DNA of 64,000 nt from assembly GCA_913030605.1 (NCBI GenBank), contig CAJWEZ010000019.1, forward strand, positions 1 to 64,000, written 5' to 3'. Numbering within the stretch: the first letter of the stretch is position 1; each line of letters begins with the position of its first letter. Positions 27,395 to 47,189 of this stretch are shown here, one piece after another. The DNA is from an uncultured Spirochaeta sp. (GTDB lineage: Bacteria > Spirochaetota > Spirochaetia > DSM-27196 > Alkalispirochaetaceae). The position numbers were made by a program, and so were the translations under genes. The notes beneath the pieces are model-generated. The model did no database searches. It was not told the origin of the DNA and saw only the letters and a program-made list of their open reading frames with translations.

Positions 27395-27444
27395 GGAGGC
27401 GGGTTTCACAGCAGTTTCACGCGGGCGGTCGTATCATGAACGGA

Positions 27445-28500
27445 ATGAACGCGTATCTGCATCGACGTGCCCGCCGGCGCGCCGATGCCCACCGGTACCC
27501 CTCGATGCCCGACACGTTCCGCCGGACCGAACGCCTTGTCCTCACGGCGATCTCACAGACCTCGGCCCAGTTCAGCTTCTGGGTGGTGGACGGTGACTAC
27601 CGCTACGTGTACTTCAACGACACCCATCGCGTGTTCATGGAGGAGTTCTGGGGTGTGGCGATCGCGGTGGGCGATCCGGTCCTGGACCTCATCCCCGATG
27701 CCACCTATCGCGAACGGACCAGGAGCGCATACACCCGCGCCACCACCACCCGAACGGTTCTGCCCGCGAGTGCCGCCCGGGACCACAACGGCATCCTGCG
27801 GTTCTTTCATACGGTGCTCCACCCGCTGCCACGCTCACGAACGGGCACCCCGCGCGGCATCGCCGCCTTTTCCGTGGAAGTGAGTGAGCTGGAGTACATT
27901 CGCGCGTCCCGTGACGCCCTCCGTCGTGAGCTCGATCACCGCGTGTTCAACAACCTTCAGACGATCGTCTCACTCCTGCAGCTGGACCTCGCGGACATTC
28001 GCGAACCGGCGGCGCGCAACGCGATCGAGTCGGCCACCGGTCGTGTGGCGACGCTCGGTCTGACCTACGAGGCGGAAGCCGAGCTGTCGGACGACGAGCG
28101 CGATCCCCGGATCGGACTGCACATGCTCTTTACCCACGTGGTTCAGATGGTGACTGAACTCAAGGATCCGCACCACCGCGTGAGTGTCATCAGGCATCTG
28201 GAACCGGTGCACCACAGCGTCACCGCGGCGGCACCGCTGGCGCTTCTGGTGCAGGAGGCGGTAGCCCTGTGCTTTGGCGACACCGCCCAAAGCCGCCCGG
28301 ACCAGCTGGAGGTCACCACAACCGGTGCCGGCGACACCGACGGCGGCGTGCTGACCGTACTGGCCCGCCCCGCGCCGCCGCTGCCCGCGGCGCCGGAGGT
28401 CGCCCTGCTTCTGGCGAACCAGGCCGGCGCCCGTATCGAGCCGATCTCAGCGGGTGATTACACGACCGCCGGATACCGGATCGTCCTCCCGCGGGACTGA
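27445..28500 (+). CDS. PAS-HisKA_2 protein with degenerate ATPase domain
   Basis: This is a soluble protein of 351 residues. A PAS-like domain (about 30-155) precedes a HisKA_2 helix pair with the intact motif ELDHRVFNNLQTIVSLLQL (phospho-acceptor His about 165). The C-terminal region (about 250-350) aligns with HATPase_c but reads LLVQEAVALCF where the N-box ELVxNAxxH is expected. I find no DxGxG box, only Pro-rich ARPAPPLP. It may therefore be a phosphotransfer or phosphatase protein rather than a kinase. The start at 27445 lies 7 nt after TATCAT (27432-27437); ATG 27436 overlaps that box. Confidence 0.78.
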   Translation: MNAYLHRRARRRADAHRYPSMPDTFRRTERLVLTAISQTSAQFSFWVVDGDYRYVYFNDTHRVFMEEFWGVAIAVGDPVLDLIPDATYRERTRSAYTRATTTRTVLPASAARDHNGILRFFHTVLHPLPRSRTGTPRGIAAFSVEVSELEYIRASRDALRRELDHRVFNNLQTIVSLLQLDLADIREPAARNAIESATGRVATLGLTYEAEAELSDDERDPRIGLHMLFTHVVQMVTELKDPHHRVSVIRHLEPVHHSVTAAAPLALLVQEAVALCFGDTAQSRPDQLEVTTTGAGDTDGGVLTVLARPAPPLPAAPEVALLLANQAGARIEPISAGDYTTAGYRIVLPRD

Positions 28501-31170: not shown

Positions 31171-32805
31171 TCAGATCTCCACCACGTGGTGGCCGTGGTA
31201 CGCCTGGTCCCGCTGCGCCTTCACGTCGTCGCTGGCAAGGTACTCATCAAAGGGCATCGTCCGGTCGATGATCCCGGTCGGCGTGAACTCGATAATCCGC
31301 GAGGCCACGGTGTTCACGAACTCGTGGTCATGACTGGTAAACAGGACCGTACCCTTGAATGCGATGAGGGCGTCGTTGAGGGCCGTGATCGATTCCAGGT
31401 CGAGATGGTTGGTCGGCTCGTCCATGATCAGGGCGTTGGGACCGGTGAGCATGAGCTTCGCCAGCATGCAGCGCACCTTCTCCCCGCCGGACAGGACCGT
31501 CACCTTCTTGAGCGACTCCTCTCCGCTAAACAGCATGCGCCCGAGGAATCCACGGACGTAGGACTCCTCCTCGACCTCGGTGTACTGGCGAAGCCACTCG
31601 ACGATCGATATCTCCCGGTCGAAGTAGCGGCCGGAGTCCTTCGGGAAGTACGCCGGCGTGATCGTGGTACCCCACTCGTACTCCCCCGCGTCGGGCGTGT
31701 CCTCACCGGCGAGCACCTCGTACAGCGCCGACTTCATGGTGTGAAAGGGCCCGACGAACGCGATCTTCTCCCCCGGCTGCACGGTCAGATCGAGACCGGA
31801 GATACCGGGTTCGCCCTCCACCGCCTTGGACAGGCCGCGAATCTCGAGCATCTTCTTCCCCGGGTCCCGCGACATCTCGAAGTTGATGTACGGCGAGCGG
31901 CGGCTCGAGGGACGGATGTCGTCGATGGAGAGCTGGTCGATCAGCTTCTGCCGGCTGGTAGCCTGCTTGCTCCGCGCCGCGTTGGAGGCAAAGCGCTGGA
32001 TGAACGCCTTGAGCTCGGCGATCTTGTCCTCGCGACGTTTCTTCTCGTCCCGCAGCTGGCGCTGAATGAGCTGGCTGGAGTGGTACCAGAAGTCATAGTT
32101 GCCCACGTAGAGCTGGATCTTGCCGAAATCGATGTCGGCGATGTGGGTACAGACGCGGTTGAGAAAGTGGCGGTCGTGGCTCACCACGATCACCGTGTTG
32201 CGAAAGTTGAACAGAAACTCCTCGAGCCACGAGACCGATTCCAGGTCCAGGTTGTTGGTCGGCTCGTCGAGCAGGAGAATGTCGGGATCACCGAACAGCG
32301 CCTGCGCCAGGAGCACCCGGACCTTCTGCCCGCCGTCCAGGTCGGCCATCTGCTTCTCGTGGAGTCCGTCGGGAATTCCAAGCCCGGCGAGGAGCCGCGC
32401 GGCTTCGCTCTCCGCTTCCCACCCGTTGAGCTCGGCGAACTCGCCCTCGAGCTCGGCGGCGCGAATGCCGTCTTCCTCGGTGAACTCCTCCTTGGTGTAG
32501 ATCGCATCCTTCTCGATCATGGTGTCGTACAGGTGACGGTGACCCATGATCACCGTGTGCATCACCGAGTACTCGTCGAAGGCAAACTGGTTCTGCTGGA
32601 GTACGGCGATCCGCTCGCCCTTCCCCACGGAGATTTCGCCGGAATCCGGCTCCAGGTCGCCGGAGAGGATCTTGAGAAATGTCGATTTCCCGGCGCCGTT
32701 GGCGCCGATGACGCCGTAGCAGTTGCCGGCGGTGAATTTGATGTTTACGTCCTTGAACAGGGGCTGATCGCCGAAGGACAGACTTACGTTCTGTGCACTA
32801 ATCAT
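31171..32805 (-). CDS. ABC-F family ATPase (YkpA/YbiT type)
   Basis: This is a soluble 544-residue protein with two ABC domains joined by a charged linker (about 240-310), and no membrane part. Members of this class act on ribosomes or as translation factors. The first domain has GANGAGKST, LDGGQKVRVLL and LLDEPTNNLD. The second has LSGGEKVRCML and MDEPTNHLD but a broken Walker A (GPFHTMKS). A degenerate second Walker A is, as far as I recall, also seen in YkpA-like relatives. I chose the ATG at 32805 (MISAQNVSLSFG) because it matches the family start and lies 13 nt after a TATAGT box; the GTG at 32820 would add five residues. Confidence 0.9.
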   Translation of the reverse strand: MISAQNVSLSFGDQPLFKDVNIKFTAGNCYGVIGANGAGKSTFLKILSGDLEPDSGEISVGKGERIAVLQQNQFAFDEYSVMHTVIMGHRHLYDTMIEKDAIYTKEEFTEEDGIRAAELEGEFAELNGWEAESEAARLLAGLGIPDGLHEKQMADLDGGQKVRVLLAQALFGDPDILLLDEPTNNLDLESVSWLEEFLFNFRNTVIVVSHDRHFLNRVCTHIADIDFGKIQLYVGNYDFWYHSSQLIQRQLRDEKKRREDKIAELKAFIQRFASNAARSKQATSRQKLIDQLSIDDIRPSSRRSPYINFEMSRDPGKKMLEIRGLSKAVEGEPGISGLDLTVQPGEKIAFVGPFHTMKSALYEVLAGEDTPDAGEYEWGTTITPAYFPKDSGRYFDREISIVEWLRQYTEVEEESYVRGFLGRMLFSGEESLKKVTVLSGGEKVRCMLAKLMLTGPNALIMDEPTNHLDLESITALNDALIAFKGTVLFTSHDHEFVNTVASRIIEFTPTGIIDRTMPFDEYLASDDVKAQRDQAYHGHHVVEI

Positions 32806-32818
32806 ATATTGGTGCCCC

Positions 32819-32847
32819 ACTATACCGATGGGACCTCACCATGACCA
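32819..32847 (-). promoter_or_regulatory. promoter of the ABC-F gene
   Basis: On the minus strand TGGTCA (32842-32847) and TATAGT (32819-32824) are 17 bp apart, 13 nt before the preferred ATG at 32805. The leader is therefore only a few bases long. Confidence 0.45.
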
Positions 32848-35163
32848 GATCTCACCCCCCGGCGTCACAACCGGTCCCAGCAACAGATAGCTCATCACCC
32901 GGTAGGAATCGTTTACCGCCACGCCGAGGCGCAGCTCGCCCAGGACGGTGTCGAACCCCAGCCCCACCTGCCCACCGAAGCGGGGGACCTCGGCGGTGGC
33001 GGGGTCAAAGGCGTCGGCGAGCGCCGTCTGCCACACCGTGGTGGCCCCGACCCCGGCGAGGAGGTACGCCCGTTCTCCCACCGCCAGCGGCAGGTCGAAG
33101 ATCCCGAGGCGCGCCCCCAGGCCGGCGGACAGCGCGTGCCGTCCCCGGAGTTCACCGAAATAGAACCCCGCGACCCGCTCGATGCCACCCTCGGAGAACT
33201 GATCCGACGAGGAGAGCCCGGAATCCAGATCCGTGGCCGCGGCAAACCGGTACGACAGCACCAGATCGCCGCCGGCGGGAACGTACCCGCGGTGGTCCGC
33301 CTGAAGCTGTACCGTCGGATCGAGCGCCTCCGGAGTCCACCACACCCGGCCATCGGCGCGCGTCTCCGTACCGCGATGGGGATACACACCCCGGTCGAGG
33401 TTGTCCTGCTGGGCAACCACCGCGGTGCCCACCCGGGCAATACCGGGATCATCGAGGACGGAGGCGCCCTGCTGCCGGTCGGTCCACGCCCACTCGCCGA
33501 AGCCCTGGACGTCGAAGCGCCATTGCCGCCCGGGATCGATGCGAATGCCGAGGTCCCCACCGGCGGTGCGACGGAAGTACAGCGCCTCCACGGTGTTTCG
33601 GTCGTAAAACGGCAGCGGCAGGGCGAGCGAGTACAGGCGTCCGCGAATCCGGGTGTCCCTGGCCACCGGCACCGAAACCCCGACGCGGGCACTCCCGACA
33701 TCGCTGAGCCACGTTTCAGCCTCCAGTCGCGGCCCGGTCTCCACATCCACCGTTGCGGCGTCTCGCCGCGGAAAACCAAGCGGCGCCCGGAAGTCCGCGT
33801 GCAGGATGGAGCGTACGTAGGTGCTTTCCACGAGCTGCGTACGGACGCCCAGTCCCACGCGCAGTTCCGACACCGTCCGCGTTCTCGGAACCAGGTACAC
33901 GTCGACATCGTAGGCACCGTCGCCGGTCGGAACCAGATCGTAGGACACGTAGCGAAATCGCCCGGTGTCGTACACTCCGTACACGGCGGTCTGGATCCGC
34001 GCCACCGTCGTCTCCGTTCCCGCCAGACCGGTCCGGAGCGCTCCGATCACCTCGTTCAGGTTCGGAACCTCCACAAAGTCCGGCACGCGGGCGTTGACCG
34101 AACCCACGGTGACCGGCACGTCGCGTTCCGGCCGCAGAAACGGGTCGATCCGGTGCTGGACCGTTCGCTCCCGCAGCGCCAGCAACGCCGGGAGCTGCGA
34201 CCTCGCCGCCTCCCGCCCCCGCTCGATCAGTTCCTGCCAGCGCCCGAAGTCCGCGGGGGTGAACCCCTGCACGTCCGGCGTGATCACCACATCGGCCCGG
34301 GCGAGGTTCTCCTCGATGCGCGAACGACGCAGAATGCGCGAGGCCTGGTTGAGGATCGCCGGGATGTCGCGAATCTCCGAGGCCTCCCGGTTGAGGAGAC
34401 TCAGACTGACGCCGATGACGGCGTCGGCCCCGCGGTCGAAGGCGACATCCACGGGAATGTTGTTCACCCATCCGCCGTCGATCAGGAACCGTCCGTCGTA
34501 GAACAGCGGGGTAAACGCCCCCGGCACCGCCATGCTCGCGCGGACCGCGCTCTTGAGATCCCCGGAGGTGTAGACCACTTCGTCGCCGGAGACCAGGTCC
34601 GCGGCGACCACGGCCAGCGATCGCGGCAGCTGATCAAACTCTTCCACGGTGGCGTCCGAGCGCAGGAGGTCGTCAAGAAACTCGATGATCGACTGTCCCG
34701 AGGAGGCGCCACCCAGGAGCAGGAGCTCCCCGTCGGCGAAGGCGAGACGACCGCGGAACAGGCGGTCGGAGCGGCGCTCGTCGAAGGACAGGCGCCGACG
34801 GCTGGCCTCATCGACGAAGATCGCGTTCCAGTCCACGCTTTCCACGATCGCCAGTATCTCCCGGGGAGAGTAGCCGGCGGCGTACAGGACTCCCACGATA
34901 CTGCCCATGCTGGTGCCGACCACCACCTCCGGGGAGATGCCGTATTCCTCCAGAACGAGGAGCACGCCCAGGTGCGCGAACCCCAGGGCGCCACCTCCGG
35001 CGAGAGCCAGACCGAGGCGCCCGTCGTCGGGTTCCCCGGTGGACTGCGGCGGTGCGGTGGATGCGGCGGGCGAGGCGGACGCGTCGCCCACCGTCTGCGC
35101 CGCCGCCAGCCCCGTCACGAGAAGCAGTACCAGGACGGCGCCCCACCGCCGCGGGTTATGCAA
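32836..35163 (-). CDS. patatin-like phospholipase fused to an outer-membrane barrel
   Basis: This 775-residue protein has a signal peptide (about 1-22, ending GLAAAQ), a patatin domain (about 45-320), a POTRA-like segment (about 345-420) and a C-terminal Omp85/BamA-type barrel (about 430-775). Patatin motifs are intact: GGGALGFAHLG oxyanion loop, GTSMGS nucleophile and DGGWVNN catalytic Asp. The barrel ends in an aromatic residue (final IWSW). The layout matches PlpD-type autotransporters (type Vd), which place an A1-type phospholipase outside the cell. Its start overlaps the stop of the acyl-CoA synthetase gene by 8 nt. Confidence 0.9.
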   Translation of the reverse strand: MHNPRRWGAVLVLLLVTGLAAAQTVGDASASPAASTAPPQSTGEPDDGRLGLALAGGGALGFAHLGVLLVLEEYGISPEVVVGTSMGSIVGVLYAAGYSPREILAIVESVDWNAIFVDEASRRRLSFDERRSDRLFRGRLAFADGELLLLGGASSGQSIIEFLDDLLRSDATVEEFDQLPRSLAVVAADLVSGDEVVYTSGDLKSAVRASMAVPGAFTPLFYDGRFLIDGGWVNNIPVDVAFDRGADAVIGVSLSLLNREASEIRDIPAILNQASRILRRSRIEENLARADVVITPDVQGFTPADFGRWQELIERGREAARSQLPALLALRERTVQHRIDPFLRPERDVPVTVGSVNARVPDFVEVPNLNEVIGALRTGLAGTETTVARIQTAVYGVYDTGRFRYVSYDLVPTGDGAYDVDVYLVPRTRTVSELRVGLGVRTQLVESTYVRSILHADFRAPLGFPRRDAATVDVETGPRLEAETWLSDVGSARVGVSVPVARDTRIRGRLYSLALPLPFYDRNTVEALYFRRTAGGDLGIRIDPGRQWRFDVQGFGEWAWTDRQQGASVLDDPGIARVGTAVVAQQDNLDRGVYPHRGTETRADGRVWWTPEALDPTVQLQADHRGYVPAGGDLVLSYRFAAATDLDSGLSSSDQFSEGGIERVAGFYFGELRGRHALSAGLGARLGIFDLPLAVGERAYLLAGVGATTVWQTALADAFDPATAEVPRFGGQVGLGFDTVLGELRLGVAVNDSYRVMSYLLLGPVVTPGGEIWSW

Positions 35164-36919
35164 CGGTGTTTCGCTTGATTTTCTTGGTTGAGGTCATCTC
35201 CATCGCTTCGTCCAGGAGCTCCACCCGGGAGATGCGCTGGTAGGGCAGCAGCTGGCGGTTTACCTCCGCCACGATCTCGTCCACCCGGGCCCGGATGTCC
35301 TCCGGCGCCGCGGCGGACCCGTCGGAGGCAGCCCCCGGCGCACCGGCGGCAAAGAAATCCCCGTTGGGGTGCACCAGCGCTTCGATCAGTTCGACTCTGT
35401 CGTGCGGATTCGCCTGGTAGCCCCGTACGAGGATCTGGTCGATCTCCTCGTAGAGCTGGAAGGCGTTCTCGATCTCCTCGGGGTACACGTTCTTGCCACC
35501 TTCACTCACGATCAGATTCTTTGCGCGTCCGGTCAGGTAGAGGTAGTGCTCCGCATCGAGGTATCCCACGTCGCCGGTACGGAAGAATCCGTCCTCGGTG
35601 AACACCTCGGCGGTTTCCTCCGGCATGTCGTAGTAGCCCTGCATCACCATGGGGCCCTTCACCACGATCTCGCCGGCCCCACGGTGATCCGGCTCGAGGA
35701 TTCGCATGTCGAGCTCGGGTAGCACCCGACCGACCGACGTCTCCTTGTAGTGGTCGGTGGGATTCAGGGTCAGAATCGGGGAGGTCTCCGTGAGGCCGTA
35801 GCCCTGGACGAAGTCGATTCCGAGCTGGTTGTACTGCCGAAACACGCTGGGCGCCAGCGGTCCACCCCCGGAAATGCAGATGCGGACCGTGGACAGCGAC
35901 GCCTTCTCGAGGACGCTGTGAAACAGCCGCTTGCCCGGGTTGATACCGGTGATCTTCTTGACCATCCCGCTGACAACCATGAGCGTGCGGATGAGGCCGT
36001 AGACCAGCGGCCCCTTCTCGCGGATGCCGCGCATGATGCCGGCGATGAGTTTGTTGAAGAGCAACGGCACCCCGAGAAACATCGTTACACCGGCGGTGCG
36101 CAGGTCGTGCATGATCTGCGTTACCGCCATGCGCTTGCCGAACACCGTCTCGGCGCCGACGGAAAAACTCTCGATAAACACCGCCAGCATGCTGTAGCTG
36201 TGGTGAATCGGCAGGAGCGCATAGAACACATCGGTGTGGTGGATGTTCAGGTTGGCCTGGGCCAGAAAGCAGTCGGAGACGAAGTTGTTGTGGGTCAGCA
36301 TGACCCCCTTGGGATGGCCGGTGGTGCCGGAGGTGTACAGGATCGCGGCGAGTTCATCTCCCGACCGCGACACCGGGGCCTCCGGCGGCCGCTCGTCGCC
36401 CCAGTCCGCCGGCGCATGATCCCGGGCCACGTCGAACACGTACGAGTCCCGGTCGGGCGCCAGGCTGAAGACGGTGTGAACCTCCGTCGGCGACAGCGTT
36501 CCGTGACGCTCGGCGTCCACACACAGCGTTCGGGCACCGGAGGCGCGCACGAGCGTCTCGATCTCCGCATCGTGCAGCTGATAGTCGATCGGGACGACAA
36601 CGCCACCGGCACACAGCGTTGCCAGGTACGCGACGGCCCACTCCGGGCTGTTCTTGCCGGTAATCGCCACGCGATCGCCGACGCCGAGGCCACGGGCGCG
36701 AAGTGCCTCCGCGAGCCCCAGGATCGTGGCGTACGCCTCCCGGTAGGTGAGCGTCACCCGCTGCGGATCGTAGGTGGTAAAACAGCTGCGATCGGGGTAT
36801 CGCGCGGTCGTGACCCGGAACAGCTGGGGCAGCGTTGGCCACCGGTCCGGGAAAAACTCGCCCCGGAACCGGTCGAGAAACTCCCAGGGAGCGGAGGAAT
36901 GGCGTGGATGATCTTCCAT
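35156..36919 (-). CDS. long-chain acyl-CoA synthetase (AMP-binding)
   Basis: This 587-residue adenylate-forming enzyme activates fatty acids with ATP and CoA. The P-loop-like motif ILYTSGTTGHPKG lies at about 190-203. YGLTETSP (about 375) and the RTGDVGYLD core of the C-terminal hinge follow. The late KNVYPEEIE segment and a terminal TSTKKIKRNTV, containing the catalytic Lys, are present. It is the first gene of an operon with the patatin-barrel protein, so released fatty acids may be re-activated here. It starts only 17 bp from the divergent PDZ-HisKA_2 gene. Confidence 0.92.
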   Translation of the reverse strand: MEDHPRHSSAPWEFLDRFRGEFFPDRWPTLPQLFRVTTARYPDRSCFTTYDPQRVTLTYREAYATILGLAEALRARGLGVGDRVAITGKNSPEWAVAYLATLCAGGVVVPIDYQLHDAEIETLVRASGARTLCVDAERHGTLSPTEVHTVFSLAPDRDSYVFDVARDHAPADWGDERPPEAPVSRSGDELAAILYTSGTTGHPKGVMLTHNNFVSDCFLAQANLNIHHTDVFYALLPIHHSYSMLAVFIESFSVGAETVFGKRMAVTQIMHDLRTAGVTMFLGVPLLFNKLIAGIMRGIREKGPLVYGLIRTLMVVSGMVKKITGINPGKRLFHSVLEKASLSTVRICISGGGPLAPSVFRQYNQLGIDFVQGYGLTETSPILTLNPTDHYKETSVGRVLPELDMRILEPDHRGAGEIVVKGPMVMQGYYDMPEETAEVFTEDGFFRTGDVGYLDAEHYLYLTGRAKNLIVSEGGKNVYPEEIENAFQLYEEIDQILVRGYQANPHDRVELIEALVHPNGDFFAAGAPGAASDGSAAAPEDIRARVDEIVAEVNRQLLPYQRISRVELLDEAMEMTSTKKIKRNTVA

Positions 36920-36922
36920 ATG

Positions 36923-36932
36923 TACAATAGTA
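36923..36932. promoter_or_regulatory. overlapping divergent -10 boxes
   Basis: TACAAT (36923-36928, plus strand) lies 8 nt before the ATG at 36937. TACTAT (36927-36932, minus strand) lies 7 nt before the ATG at 36919. Both sit in the near-palindrome TGTACAATAGTACA, so polymerase can occupy only one direction at a time. The -35 boxes would fall inside the two coding sequences and are not obvious. Confidence 0.55.
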
Positions 36933-36936
36933 CACG

Positions 36937-39276
36937 ATGAAACGTGCCTACGCTACGCTCGCGGCCAGCACACTGGTACTTCTCCTGCTGGCAGGGTGGC
37001 TCGCCGTGATCGCAGCGCAGCCGGTTCACCGGGCGGGGCTGGTCATGTCCCTCCGCGAGGAAGGCTACCGCGTCCTCAGGGTGGTCCGGGGAGGCCCCGC
37101 GGACCGCAGTGGTCTCACCGCCGGCGACGTGATCGCCTCCATTGACACCAACAGCGCCGCCGACCTCCTGGAACGGTCCCGGATCGACTCGGAGTCGTAT
37201 CTGCGCCACGTGTCGCGTCTGTTTTCGGTGCCCGGTCCGCTGGAGCTGGTCCTCGACGACGGATCCCGCGTGCGCATGCCGCTGGACGACGCCTCGCTCC
37301 GTGTACGGCTGGCGTCGGTCCACCGCACCGTTCTCTCGAACATCATCGTTGCGATTCTGCTGGTGATAATCGCGACGGCATTCGCCCTCGGAACACCCGA
37401 TGCGGACGCGATGCGGCTCTACTACACCCTCTCGCTCGTCGCCGCCCTGACGATCGCGGTTTCGTTCTTCCACAGCCTCTGGCAGTTCTGGGTGCTTCAG
37501 CTCGTCTTTGCCTCCGTGGAAGTGCTCGGAACGGCCACGGGCGCGCTCCTGATATGGTTCGGGCTGCAGTTTCCCCGGCCGATGCGGGTGCGACGCGCGT
37601 CGGTGGCCGCGATTCTCGCGACGCCCCCGGTGGCGCGCCTGCTCGTCCTCGGCACCGGGCTTGGCACGCTCTTCGGGCCGGGGCACCTGTACCTCCACGC
37701 GTACCTCATCGCGGCGATCGTGGCGTTCACGGTGATCCTGGTGATGCAGTATCGGCGGAGGAGCGCCGGCGCGCGTCGACGCATTCGCTGGGTGTTTCTC
37801 GGGTCGGTTGTCAGCATCGGACCGTACGTCCTCTACCTCGGGGCACGCCTCTGTGCCGGTAGCTTCATCGAGCACCAGGTTCCGGGGCTGCTCAATCAGG
37901 TTGCTGCGTTCTCCTTTCTGCTCTTTCCGATGGCGGTCGGCCTCGGTGTGATGGACGTGGAACGCCTCGACGTGGACCGCCTGATCGCCACCACGGCCAC
38001 GTACTTCATCGTCGGGGTGGTGATCGCCGCCGCCACCGGACTCCTGGAGTCGATCACCCGCGTGACCACACCGGTCATGAGCTCGTTCCTTCTGGTGATC
38101 GTGGTCACGATCTTCGGCCGCCCCGTGCACTCCATCGTTGCCGGGGCGGTTGAGTCCCGAGTGCTCCGCCGCGAACGGGCACGACAGGCGGCGTTCGAGC
38201 GCTTTCGTCTGGATCTCCTGGTCTGTCGTCAGTCGACGGACGTGTTTACCCGCCTGGTCGATTTCGTCGACACCCAGTTCGCACCGCGGTGGCTCTGCGT
38301 CCTCGGAGATGACCACGACGGCCTCTCTCCGGTGGTCTCCCGGCGCTGTGATCCCGCCAGGGACCACGGTCCCTGGACAGCGGTGACGTCGGCGGCGCGG
38401 CACAGCAGCTCGTCGGTATCCCTGCACCCGGGGGGCGCGGCGACGATGTGGCTCGGCGGACCACGGAACGACCACGATTACTACCTCGTCGCCGGACCAC
38501 CGGAGGACGGCGACACCTACGTCCACAGCGACGTGACCCTGCTGCGGGAGGCGGCGTTTGCGGTCGAGCAGGGGCTGCTGGCAACCTCGTTTTCCGAACA
38601 GTTGATCGAACAGGTCGAGGAACAGCGCGTGCTGGTCAGGGAGAAGCATTCGCTCCTGCGGGAGGTGCACCACCGAGTCAGGAACAACCTGCAGGTGATA
38701 CTGAGCATGCTCCGCCTGGTCGCCCGCGACGCAGACGAGGCCACCCGCGCGGTACTCGCGGCGCATGAACGCAGGGTGTACTCGATGTCGCAGGTGCACG
38801 AGTCGGCGTATCAGCAGGACACGCCGGACCGTGTGGCACTGGACCGCTACCTGGGCGGCCTCGTTCGGTTCGTCCGGGACCACCGTGCGCCGACGGTGCG
38901 GATGGCCGAATCCTATCAGGCCCTGACGCTTCCGGTGACCGACGCTCTTCCCTGCGGTCTCATCGTGACCGAGGTGTGCGGGCTCCTCTGCGCCCACGGC
39001 GTGGATATCACCGGCACCCCCGAGGTCAGCATCGCCGTCGACTCCGATGGCGCGACCGCCACCATCCGCGCCACCGGAAACGGCAGCGTGTCGTGGTCTG
39101 AGCTTCCCGCCGACGACGCCGCGGCCCTCACCATGATCGAAGCCCTGGCCCGCCAGCTCGACGGACAGGCGGCGTTGGAGTCGGGGGTGCGGCCATCGAT
39201 CGTGGTTACCTTCCCGGCGCCGGAGTATCAGGAGCCGAAGTATCAGGAGCCGGGGACGGTGACCTCCATCAGATAG
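36937..39276 (+). CDS. PDZ-membrane-HisKA_2 sensor with degenerate ATPase domain
   Basis: This is a 779-residue membrane protein. An N-terminal helix (about 8-28) is followed by an extracytoplasmic PDZ domain (about 30-115, GGPADRSGLTAGDVI), then about seven helices (130-400). A GAF-like part (about 410-545) follows. The HisKA_2 helices carry REVHHRVRNNLQVILSMLRL (His about 579). The ATPase-like end reads IVTEVCGLLCAHG where ELVxNAxxH is expected, and RATGNGSV instead of DxGxG, so ATP binding is doubtful. It may sense envelope stress or a peptide end through PDZ. It is divergent from the acyl-CoA synthetase/patatin operon and overlaps the convergent nitrilase gene by 34 bp. Confidence 0.8.
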   Translation: MKRAYATLAASTLVLLLLAGWLAVIAAQPVHRAGLVMSLREEGYRVLRVVRGGPADRSGLTAGDVIASIDTNSAADLLERSRIDSESYLRHVSRLFSVPGPLELVLDDGSRVRMPLDDASLRVRLASVHRTVLSNIIVAILLVIIATAFALGTPDADAMRLYYTLSLVAALTIAVSFFHSLWQFWVLQLVFASVEVLGTATGALLIWFGLQFPRPMRVRRASVAAILATPPVARLLVLGTGLGTLFGPGHLYLHAYLIAAIVAFTVILVMQYRRRSAGARRRIRWVFLGSVVSIGPYVLYLGARLCAGSFIEHQVPGLLNQVAAFSFLLFPMAVGLGVMDVERLDVDRLIATTATYFIVGVVIAAATGLLESITRVTTPVMSSFLLVIVVTIFGRPVHSIVAGAVESRVLRRERARQAAFERFRLDLLVCRQSTDVFTRLVDFVDTQFAPRWLCVLGDDHDGLSPVVSRRCDPARDHGPWTAVTSAARHSSSSVSLHPGGAATMWLGGPRNDHDYYLVAGPPEDGDTYVHSDVTLLREAAFAVEQGLLATSFSEQLIEQVEEQRVLVREKHSLLREVHHRVRNNLQVILSMLRLVARDADEATRAVLAAHERRVYSMSQVHESAYQQDTPDRVALDRYLGGLVRFVRDHRAPTVRMAESYQALTLPVTDALPCGLIVTEVCGLLCAHGVDITGTPEVSIAVDSDGATATIRATGNGSVSWSELPADDAAALTMIEALARQLDGQAALESGVRPSIVVTFPAPEYQEPKYQEPGTVTSIR
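39225..39254. repeat. 15-bp tandem duplication in a convergent gene overlap
   Basis: A unit GTATCAGGAGCCGaa occurs in tandem at 39225-39239 and 39240-39254 (last two bases differ). It encodes a duplicated YQEP in the C-terminus of the HisKA_2 protein and lies partly in the convergent nitrilase frame. Confidence 0.6.
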
Positions 39277-40202
39277 TCTCCGTCCACCGTGGGTGACTGC
39301 CGTACCCGGTCGCCATCGCCGTCGACGACGAAGGCGGGCCCCTGCCACAACAGGTCAAAAAACCGACCGTTCAGTGCGGTGCTCATGCCAAGTTCCACAG
39401 GGGTGTCCGCCACGCGTTCCGGCAGGGCCTCGTCGAAGCGTCGGCGGACCGCAGTGTCCCACACTTCACCGTTGGCGCGCACGTCGATCCAGGCATCGAC
39501 GGCGGCAAACCGGTCCTCCCAGACATCGAAGAACGAGTCACGGCACACCGTGATCGACAGCTGCCTGCCGCCGATAGAAACGGGCCGCGCCGTTCCCACG
39601 GACCCCGGGTCGAGCCCCAGCACCCGACGTTCGTAGTCGGTGAGAAACACCTTGTCCTGGCGGTACGCCAGGTTCCCCTGTCCGTCGAACACCCAGACGC
39701 GGTTGTGAACCTCCCCGTCGTCTCCCGGTACGAACGCCGATCCCGCGAGGATCCACACCCCGGATTCCGCCGCCACTGAGGACCAGATGCCGCGAAGGCG
39801 GTCCGCGTACTGCCGCGACAGCGTGCGCACGAACTCGTGCACCGCCGGCGTCACCGGGGGCAGCTCGCCGTCGGCGACACCGAACGCCGCCCTGGCAACG
39901 CCTTCCGGGATTCGGGCCGGTTCCAGCGTCCCGTCGTCATCGATCATGCCGGAGAACATCGCAAAGACGGAGACGTACTCCGGGAACACCACGAGATCCG
40001 GGTCAAACCGTTCGACGGCGCGATCCACGACCGCCTCGACCCGCCGCTGAAACGCGGGGAGGGAGGCGTAGTCTCCGGGATCAACGCGGTACTGCACCAG
40101 AACGACGTCGAGAGGATCCGCAGCGTGAAGGGGAAGCGGAACCGCGACCAGAACCAGAAGCACAGCCAGTGGCGCGGAGCGCCGAAGAAACGGGGCGGTC
40201 AT
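39243..40202 (-). CDS. exported nitrilase-superfamily hydrolase
   Basis: This 319-residue carbon-nitrogen hydrolase has a signal peptide (about 1-27, ending LPLHAA). The Glu-Lys-Cys triad is visible: Glu in VVFPEYVS (about 73), Lys in RQDKVFLTDYE and Cys in ITVCRDSFF. Family members cleave amides or nitriles; export is unusual for standard cytosolic amidases and may point to a periplasmic amide or acyl transfer role. The start at 40202 follows TGGACA-N17-TAGCCT on the minus strand (40211-40239) by 8 nt. Confidence 0.82.
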   Translation of the reverse strand: MTAPFLRRSAPLAVLLVLVAVPLPLHAADPLDVVLVQYRVDPGDYASLPAFQRRVEAVVDRAVERFDPDLVVFPEYVSVFAMFSGMIDDDGTLEPARIPEGVARAAFGVADGELPPVTPAVHEFVRTLSRQYADRLRGIWSSVAAESGVWILAGSAFVPGDDGEVHNRVWVFDGQGNLAYRQDKVFLTDYERRVLGLDPGSVGTARPVSIGGRQLSITVCRDSFFDVWEDRFAAVDAWIDVRANGEVWDTAVRRRFDEALPERVADTPVELGMSTALNGRFFDLLWQGPAFVVDGDGDRVRQSPTVDGDYLMEVTVPGS

Positions 40203-47160: not shown

Positions 47161-47189
47161 CGGGACTCGCTCCGCGCGTGCTGCATCAC

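Follow-up and report, generated by a model that had tools for sequence, protein, structure and literature searches.

Do the 17 bp that separate two divergent genes of an uncultured Spirochaeta sp. serve as a promoter for both sides, and do they join a phospholipase, a fatty acid-activating enzyme and an envelope sensor into one regulatory unit in which transcription of one side excludes the other, as the initial annotation of this DNA proposed? In the window (the whole stretch of 64 000 nt that was analysed, belonging to genome G000) an acyl-CoA synthetase gene lies on the minus strand (35156–36919; AMP-binding domain PF00501, E 1.3e-82; long-chain fatty acid-CoA ligase-like) and begins with an ATG at 36919. 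On the plus strand, the gene of a protein with PDZ, multi-TM, weak GAF-like and HisKA_2 regions (36937–39276; PF07568, 1.1e-18; ATPase domain degenerate), here called the sensor, begins with an ATG at 36937, leaving a gap from 36920 to 36936 (ATGTACAATAGTACACG). A patatin-Omp85 outer-membrane phospholipase gene of the PlpD type (32836–35163, minus strand; PF01734 3.5e-34, PF01103 6.7e-6) starts with TTG at 35163 and shares 8 nt (35156–35163) with the 3' end of the synthetase gene. Both the gap and the overlap are thus as first described, and the two facing start codons are backed by related genomes: the sensor start aligns to within 1–2 residues with that of its homologue in G001, and the N-terminal lengths of the synthetases match among relatives. 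The domain assignments stood for patatin, Omp85, AMP-binding and HisKA_2, all found with Pfam. For PDZ the window copy stays below the Pfam cut-offs, scoring 25.3, 23.4 and 21.5 against 27, 27 and 23.2; the G001 homologue passes the PDZ_6 cut-off (30.6 against 27).

The gap does contain two opposed, overlapping -10 boxes. The plus-strand hexamer TACAAT (36923–36928) stands 8 nt before the sensor ATG and the minus-strand hexamer TACTAT (36932–36927) 7 nt before the synthetase ATG, with 2 bp in common. Random 17-mers of genome composition place TANNNT 6–9 nt ahead of both starts with p about 0.001, and shuffles of this AT-rich gap give the same placement with 0.015. A -10-like hexamer is found 6–7 nt before the synthetase ATG in all seven genomes of the genus, whose synthetases are 66.8–70.7% identical to that of the window in 6/6 relatives: TAGACT at 6 nt in G001, G002 and G005 and at 7 nt in G004 and G006, TATACT at 6 nt in G003, and TACTAT at 7 nt in the window. 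Likewise, both genus genomes that carry the sensor have a hexamer 8 nt before its ATG (TACAAT in the window, TATAAT in G001). We therefore consider both opposed boxes likely to be real promoters. In our reading, the genus inherited the synthetase promoter from its common ancestor, whereas the overlap between it and the promoter of the sensor arose later and is lineage-specific; as far as seen, the overlap is peculiar to the lineage of the window, since the promoters in the 110-bp gap of G001 do not overlap. The overlapping arrangement is known from this one genome, and the nearest relative, G003, has no sensor. An exact-copy scan for the double-hexamer layout in its order returned two of 46 genomes, the window and G011, the latter match being an inverted repeat that is longer and of a different kind.

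Hexamers so close to a start codon point to leaderless mRNAs for both genes. According to published work, TANNNT about 10–12 bp upstream of the start marks a leaderless gene, and such genes occur in 6 of 18 Spirochaetes genomes, with a mean of 3.9% of genes (PMC3160421). The published placement is found here with spacers of 7 and 8 nt, in the six synthetase orthologues with 6–7 nt and in the G001 sensor with 8 nt. In a sample of 464 kb of the window's genome, with 361 genes called by longest ORF and codon-position GC and hence with rough start positions, TANNNT is enriched 6–9 nt before starts: spacers of 6, 7, 8 and 9 nt gave 13, 8, 8 and 8 matches (37 in total), compared with about 2.5 per spacer at 11–44 nt, and 41 of the 361 genes have the motif at a spacer of 5–9 nt. 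Leaderless mRNAs would accordingly seem to be common in this genome. With known leaderless TANNNT genes (PMC3160421) the pair shares the motif 6–8 nt before the start, the ATG start codon and the high-GC genome; it differs in that two genes stand head-to-head on one signal region. Among the 64 divergent pairs of the sample, five have TANNNT before both starts, and only the synthetase/sensor gap is shorter than 53 bp. By longest-ORF calls the window holds a second head-to-head gap of 17 bp (47161–47177), between a SpoIIE phosphatase and an MFS_2 transporter gene; it has no -10 boxes, and the MFS_2 start there is probably misplaced.

Divergent starts of this kind have a counterpart in bidirectional promoters, which in the accessible portion of one report have start sites 7–25 bp apart and overlapping -10s, with 18 bp as the commonest distance (PMC10268837). 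As far as the available parts of two papers describe them, prokaryotic bidirectional promoters share with our locus the overlapping -10s on opposite strands, predicted starts 15–18 bp apart and weak or missing -35s (PMC12825309, PMC10268837). The locus differs from them in three ways: both transcripts are leaderless by prediction and start at two start codons, the promoter outside the -10s is nearly all coding sequence, and the hexamers overlap by 2 bp instead of the 5 bp reported for the 18-bp register. The usual 7-bp rule predicts starts at 36935 and 36920, i.e. 15 bp apart and not at the preferred 18; from the positions alone, a distance of 18 bp is predicted if the A of each start codon is the first base of its mRNA, these two bases being 18 bp apart. 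An exact 18-bp register of the hexamers would place the synthetase mRNA start inside its ATG, and the reciprocal -7T/-11A coincidence needs TATTGT as the minus-strand hexamer, only 4 nt from the ATG, whereas the better-placed TACTAT does not coincide. Our literature search for a leaderless, overlapping, divergent bidirectional promoter led to a broad synthetic-biology review and to a paper on Pyrococcus, the latter of which describes no such case in the part accessible to us.

A -35 element is recognisable on neither side. On the synthetase side, 6/6 relatives have a 4/6 match to the -35 consensus 17–18 bp further upstream, while the best matches in the window are 2/6 for the synthetase and 3/6 for the sensor. 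Our preferred reading, to which we assign a probability of about 0.6, is that the gap is a weak, -10-only bidirectional promoter that serves two leaderless genes. Each hexamer would fire an mRNA from or near the A of its own ATG, and basal activity would be low in both directions because the two -35 positions sit in the coding sequence of the opposing gene. The lack of a -35 may in fact leave the promoter of one gene or of both too weak, and transcription of the sensor could come from within the synthetase gene.

A promoter of this kind argues against constitutive exclusion. RNA polymerase would be able to occupy the site in only one orientation at a time, and for E. coli bidirectional promoters the consulted text states that polymerase cannot bind both ways simultaneously (PMC12825309). 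It also states that basal firing of five tested promoters was too low for competition, and that strong activation of one side repressed the other (PMC12825309). The idea that transcription of one side simply excludes the other therefore does not carry over from what is described in E. coli, where one side had to be strongly activated before competition arose; as neither side here has a recognisable -35, the promoter should be weak, which makes constitutive mutual exclusion unlikely. Interference would become relevant only once an activator drives one side, and an activator could in that way bring about exclusion.

The two boxes lie within a perfect inverted repeat, TGTAC and GTACA around AATA (TGTACAATAGTACA, 36921–36934), and so their likeness to -10 elements might be a by-product of a palindromic operator at which a dimeric repressor controls both genes. 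Its 5-bp arms are perfect, and TGTAC-N4-GTACA occurs at six places in the genome as opposed to one for the reversed control. On contig C73 of G000 (L047, 1501–1535) an intergenic region contains two TGTACACGTGTACA copies 7 bp apart, arranged like a tandem repressor operator and resembling one of LacI type. However, the six sites have differing centres and no common context (two are in coding sequence, two form the tandem pair, and one is situated about 10 bp ahead of another gene), the synthetase/sensor locus has no regulator gene next to it, and a 5-bp inverted repeat is expected in 1–2% of random 17-bp gaps, so that the palindrome alone is weak evidence. Upstream of the synthetase in the six other genus genomes the palindrome is absent, but the -10 is retained. 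We rejected the palindrome as an operator or regulon marker on the grounds of the scattered site contexts and this absence, and regard a repressor site as quite improbable. For the weak bidirectional promoter, conservation of the hexamers in relatives is the stronger evidence.

If the three genes formed a unit, their pairing should recur in close relatives, a test that the initial annotation itself set, and by and large it does not. All seven genus genomes have the synthetase; the sensor adjoins it, head-to-head, in two (the window and G001), patatin adjoins it in two (the window and G003), and all three genes are together in the window only. Across the synthetase start, G003 has a CN-hydrolase gene and G002, G004, G005 and G006 a divergent FKBP gene, and in the five genus genomes other than those of the window and G003 the best patatin match is on another contig or far from the synthetase. 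We therefore rejected a conserved three-gene unit. A single selected unit of phospholipase, fatty acid activation and envelope sensor, with promoter exclusion as its switch, can nevertheless point to the adjacency of the genes and the overlap of the -10 boxes in the window, and to the sensor of G001, which is also head-to-head with the synthetase and probably occupies the equivalent position next to FKBP, since the G001 FKBP gene opens a contig (C106:5). Against it stand the occurrence of the triplet in one of seven genomes with other genes at the place in five, and the arrangement in G001, where the 110-bp gap has no shared box, the promoters are separate and patatin is not adjacent. Outside the genus, the stretches compared around the G355 homologue and at six further loci contain no synthetase relative, and in G027 the upstream side ends with the contig. 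Together with the loss of the kinase's ATPase motifs described below and the accessible E. coli data, which contradict exclusion at basal activity (PMC12825309), these observations make a selected unit highly improbable. The promoter, in short, belongs to a known bidirectional class and is probably real, while the proposed three-gene unit is not conserved; tight head-to-head spacing by itself is no evidence of a regulatory unit, because a relative has the two promoters separately and the pairing is not kept.

The sensor itself is rare. Its N-terminal part was found in three of 60 other genomes in a search of relatives, one of them a weak match of 66 residues. A search of the phylum with the sensor alignment matched 78 of 392 genomes, the window included, nearly all with short stretches in the PDZ range; besides the window there was one near full-length match (G355). 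A scan of a named genome collection returned two loci, both in spirochaete MAGs and equal in length to the G001 and G027 contigs; the isolate names of these two MAGs point to soda lakes. In a tree of synthetase, ABC-F, FKBP and MFS sequences (ABC-F and MFS missing for G001, MFS for G002 and G003), G000 and G003 form a group at 100 and G001 falls with the remaining four, and the history of the sensor in the genus may comprise two gains or several losses.

The designation as an envelope sensor is not supported where it implies a working kinase, as the ATP-binding motifs have been lost. Like other HisKA_2 sensor histidine kinases it has an H-box (HHRVRNNL at residue 578, within HisKA_2) with the phospho-acceptor His present; the Pfam match to 7TM is weak. 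It differs from them by its N-terminal PDZ and multi-TM module and by the absence of a HATPase_c match at E<=0.1 in Pfam, a domain that G001 (4.3e-8) and G027 (2.1e-7) have. In the alignment the Asn of the N box is replaced by Leu, and the Asp of the G1 box and the Gly-Gly of the G2 box are lost. The protein is probably an inactive kinase or pseudokinase, but phosphorylation, or signalling through binding, would still be open to it. Of the genome's 26 HisKA_2 places, our kinase alignment took in 19, leaving out W59 and six loci that our H-box pattern did not detect, and four of the 19 are without the N-box Asn: the sensor, the protein at 27436–28500, L160 and L162. The second of these, encoded on the plus strand of the window 9 kb from the sensor, combines PAS_4 with HisKA_2; its H-box reads DHRVFNNL, and its ATPase part is degenerate. 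A literature search for PDZ, histidine kinase and 7TM in spirochaetes found nothing.

The loss of the ATPase motifs raises the further alternative that only the synthetase promoter is real and that the sensor, gained or kept by chance and weakly or not at all expressed, is decaying to a pseudogene. Its absence from five of the seven genus genomes would fit, as would its divergence: the window sensor has 31% identity to G001 and likewise to G027, while these two share 39%, so that its branch is long. Yet its reading frame stays open across 779 codons, with a third-position GC of 0.82–0.86 throughout and normal codon use to the end, and G001 has a perfect TATAAT at the identical spacing of 8 nt; we hold this alternative to be unlikely. 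A structure model of the sensor has low confidence (mean pLDDT 55.5, 3 sequences). In G355 (L137, 6057–8309, minus strand) a PDZ–TM module homologous to that of the sensor ends in an HD domain (PF13487) and not in a kinase; the N-terminal part thus behaves like a mobile sensory module, and the PDZ–TM module seems to swap outputs.

On the other side of the promoter, the association of synthetase and patatin is better supported. For the synthetase the best NCBIfam subfamily is NF004837, with a score below its cut-off. The patatin protein matches the PlpD structure 5fqu with E 2.2e-57, has the Ser-Asp dyad motifs in its PF01734 domain (GTSMG at residue 83, DGG at 229), and carries a C-terminal Omp85 barrel (PF01103, residues 585–750) at 26.3 bits with a cut-off of 24; between patatin and barrel, Pfam gave no POTRA match. 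Dyad motifs, barrel and a signal-like N-terminus are shared with the PlpD/FplA family as described in the consulted portion of the literature (5fqu; PMC11116518), whereas the position behind an acyl-CoA synthetase gene sets the window gene apart, as may the missing POTRA match. The phospholipase was first annotated as a surface enzyme; for PlpD, the best-studied patatin-Omp85 protein, the available text places the patatin domain in the periplasm and reports that phospholipids accumulate in the mutant (PMC11116518), so that the prototype lends a surface location no support. Stop–start overlaps of 8 nt in the window and 1 nt in G003 make translational coupling of synthetase and patatin probable. 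It is plausible that a periplasm-facing phospholipase and a cytosolic CoA ligase that re-activates its fatty acids form a lipid-recycling pair, which the weak promoter would serve as coupled genes of lipid turnover, with the sensor as a separate and often absent neighbour. Gene order and overlaps hence favour the coupling of synthetase and patatin and not the inclusion of the sensor in a unit.

For divergent genes that are both leaderless, the intergenic space might be able to shrink to little beyond an overlapping pair of -10s, with -35 and spacer taken over by the coding sequence of the opposing gene. We offer this idea tentatively and at somewhat less than even odds; in its extreme form, the pseudokinase sensor would still matter partly through transcriptional competition with the lipid pair. 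If it is true, evolution of the first residues of either protein would retune the promoter of the opposing gene. If the start sites are confirmed, a high-GC spirochaete lineage would offer a compact natural example in which leaderless genes meet a bidirectional promoter, both of them documented phenomena, and a functional divergent intergenic region could be as short as 17 bp.

Two neighbouring genes complete the picture. At its 3' end the sensor gene converges with a CN-hydrolase gene (39243–40202, minus strand), overlapping it by 34 nt (39243–39276). Downstream of patatin lies the gene of a YbiT-like ABC-F ATPase (31171–32820, minus strand; NF011646, 658 bits with a cut-off of 762). Five of six genus relatives (G002–G006) also have ABC-F on the synthetase's far side: directly next to it in G004 and G006, separated from it by patatin in G003, and about 1.5 kb away in G002 and G005. 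The start of the window gene is probably the ATG at 32805 and not the GTG at 32820, since matches in relatives begin at residue 4–5, and a promoter-like site on the minus strand (TGGTCA-17-TATAGT, 32847–32819) may provide the ABC-F gene with a promoter of its own.
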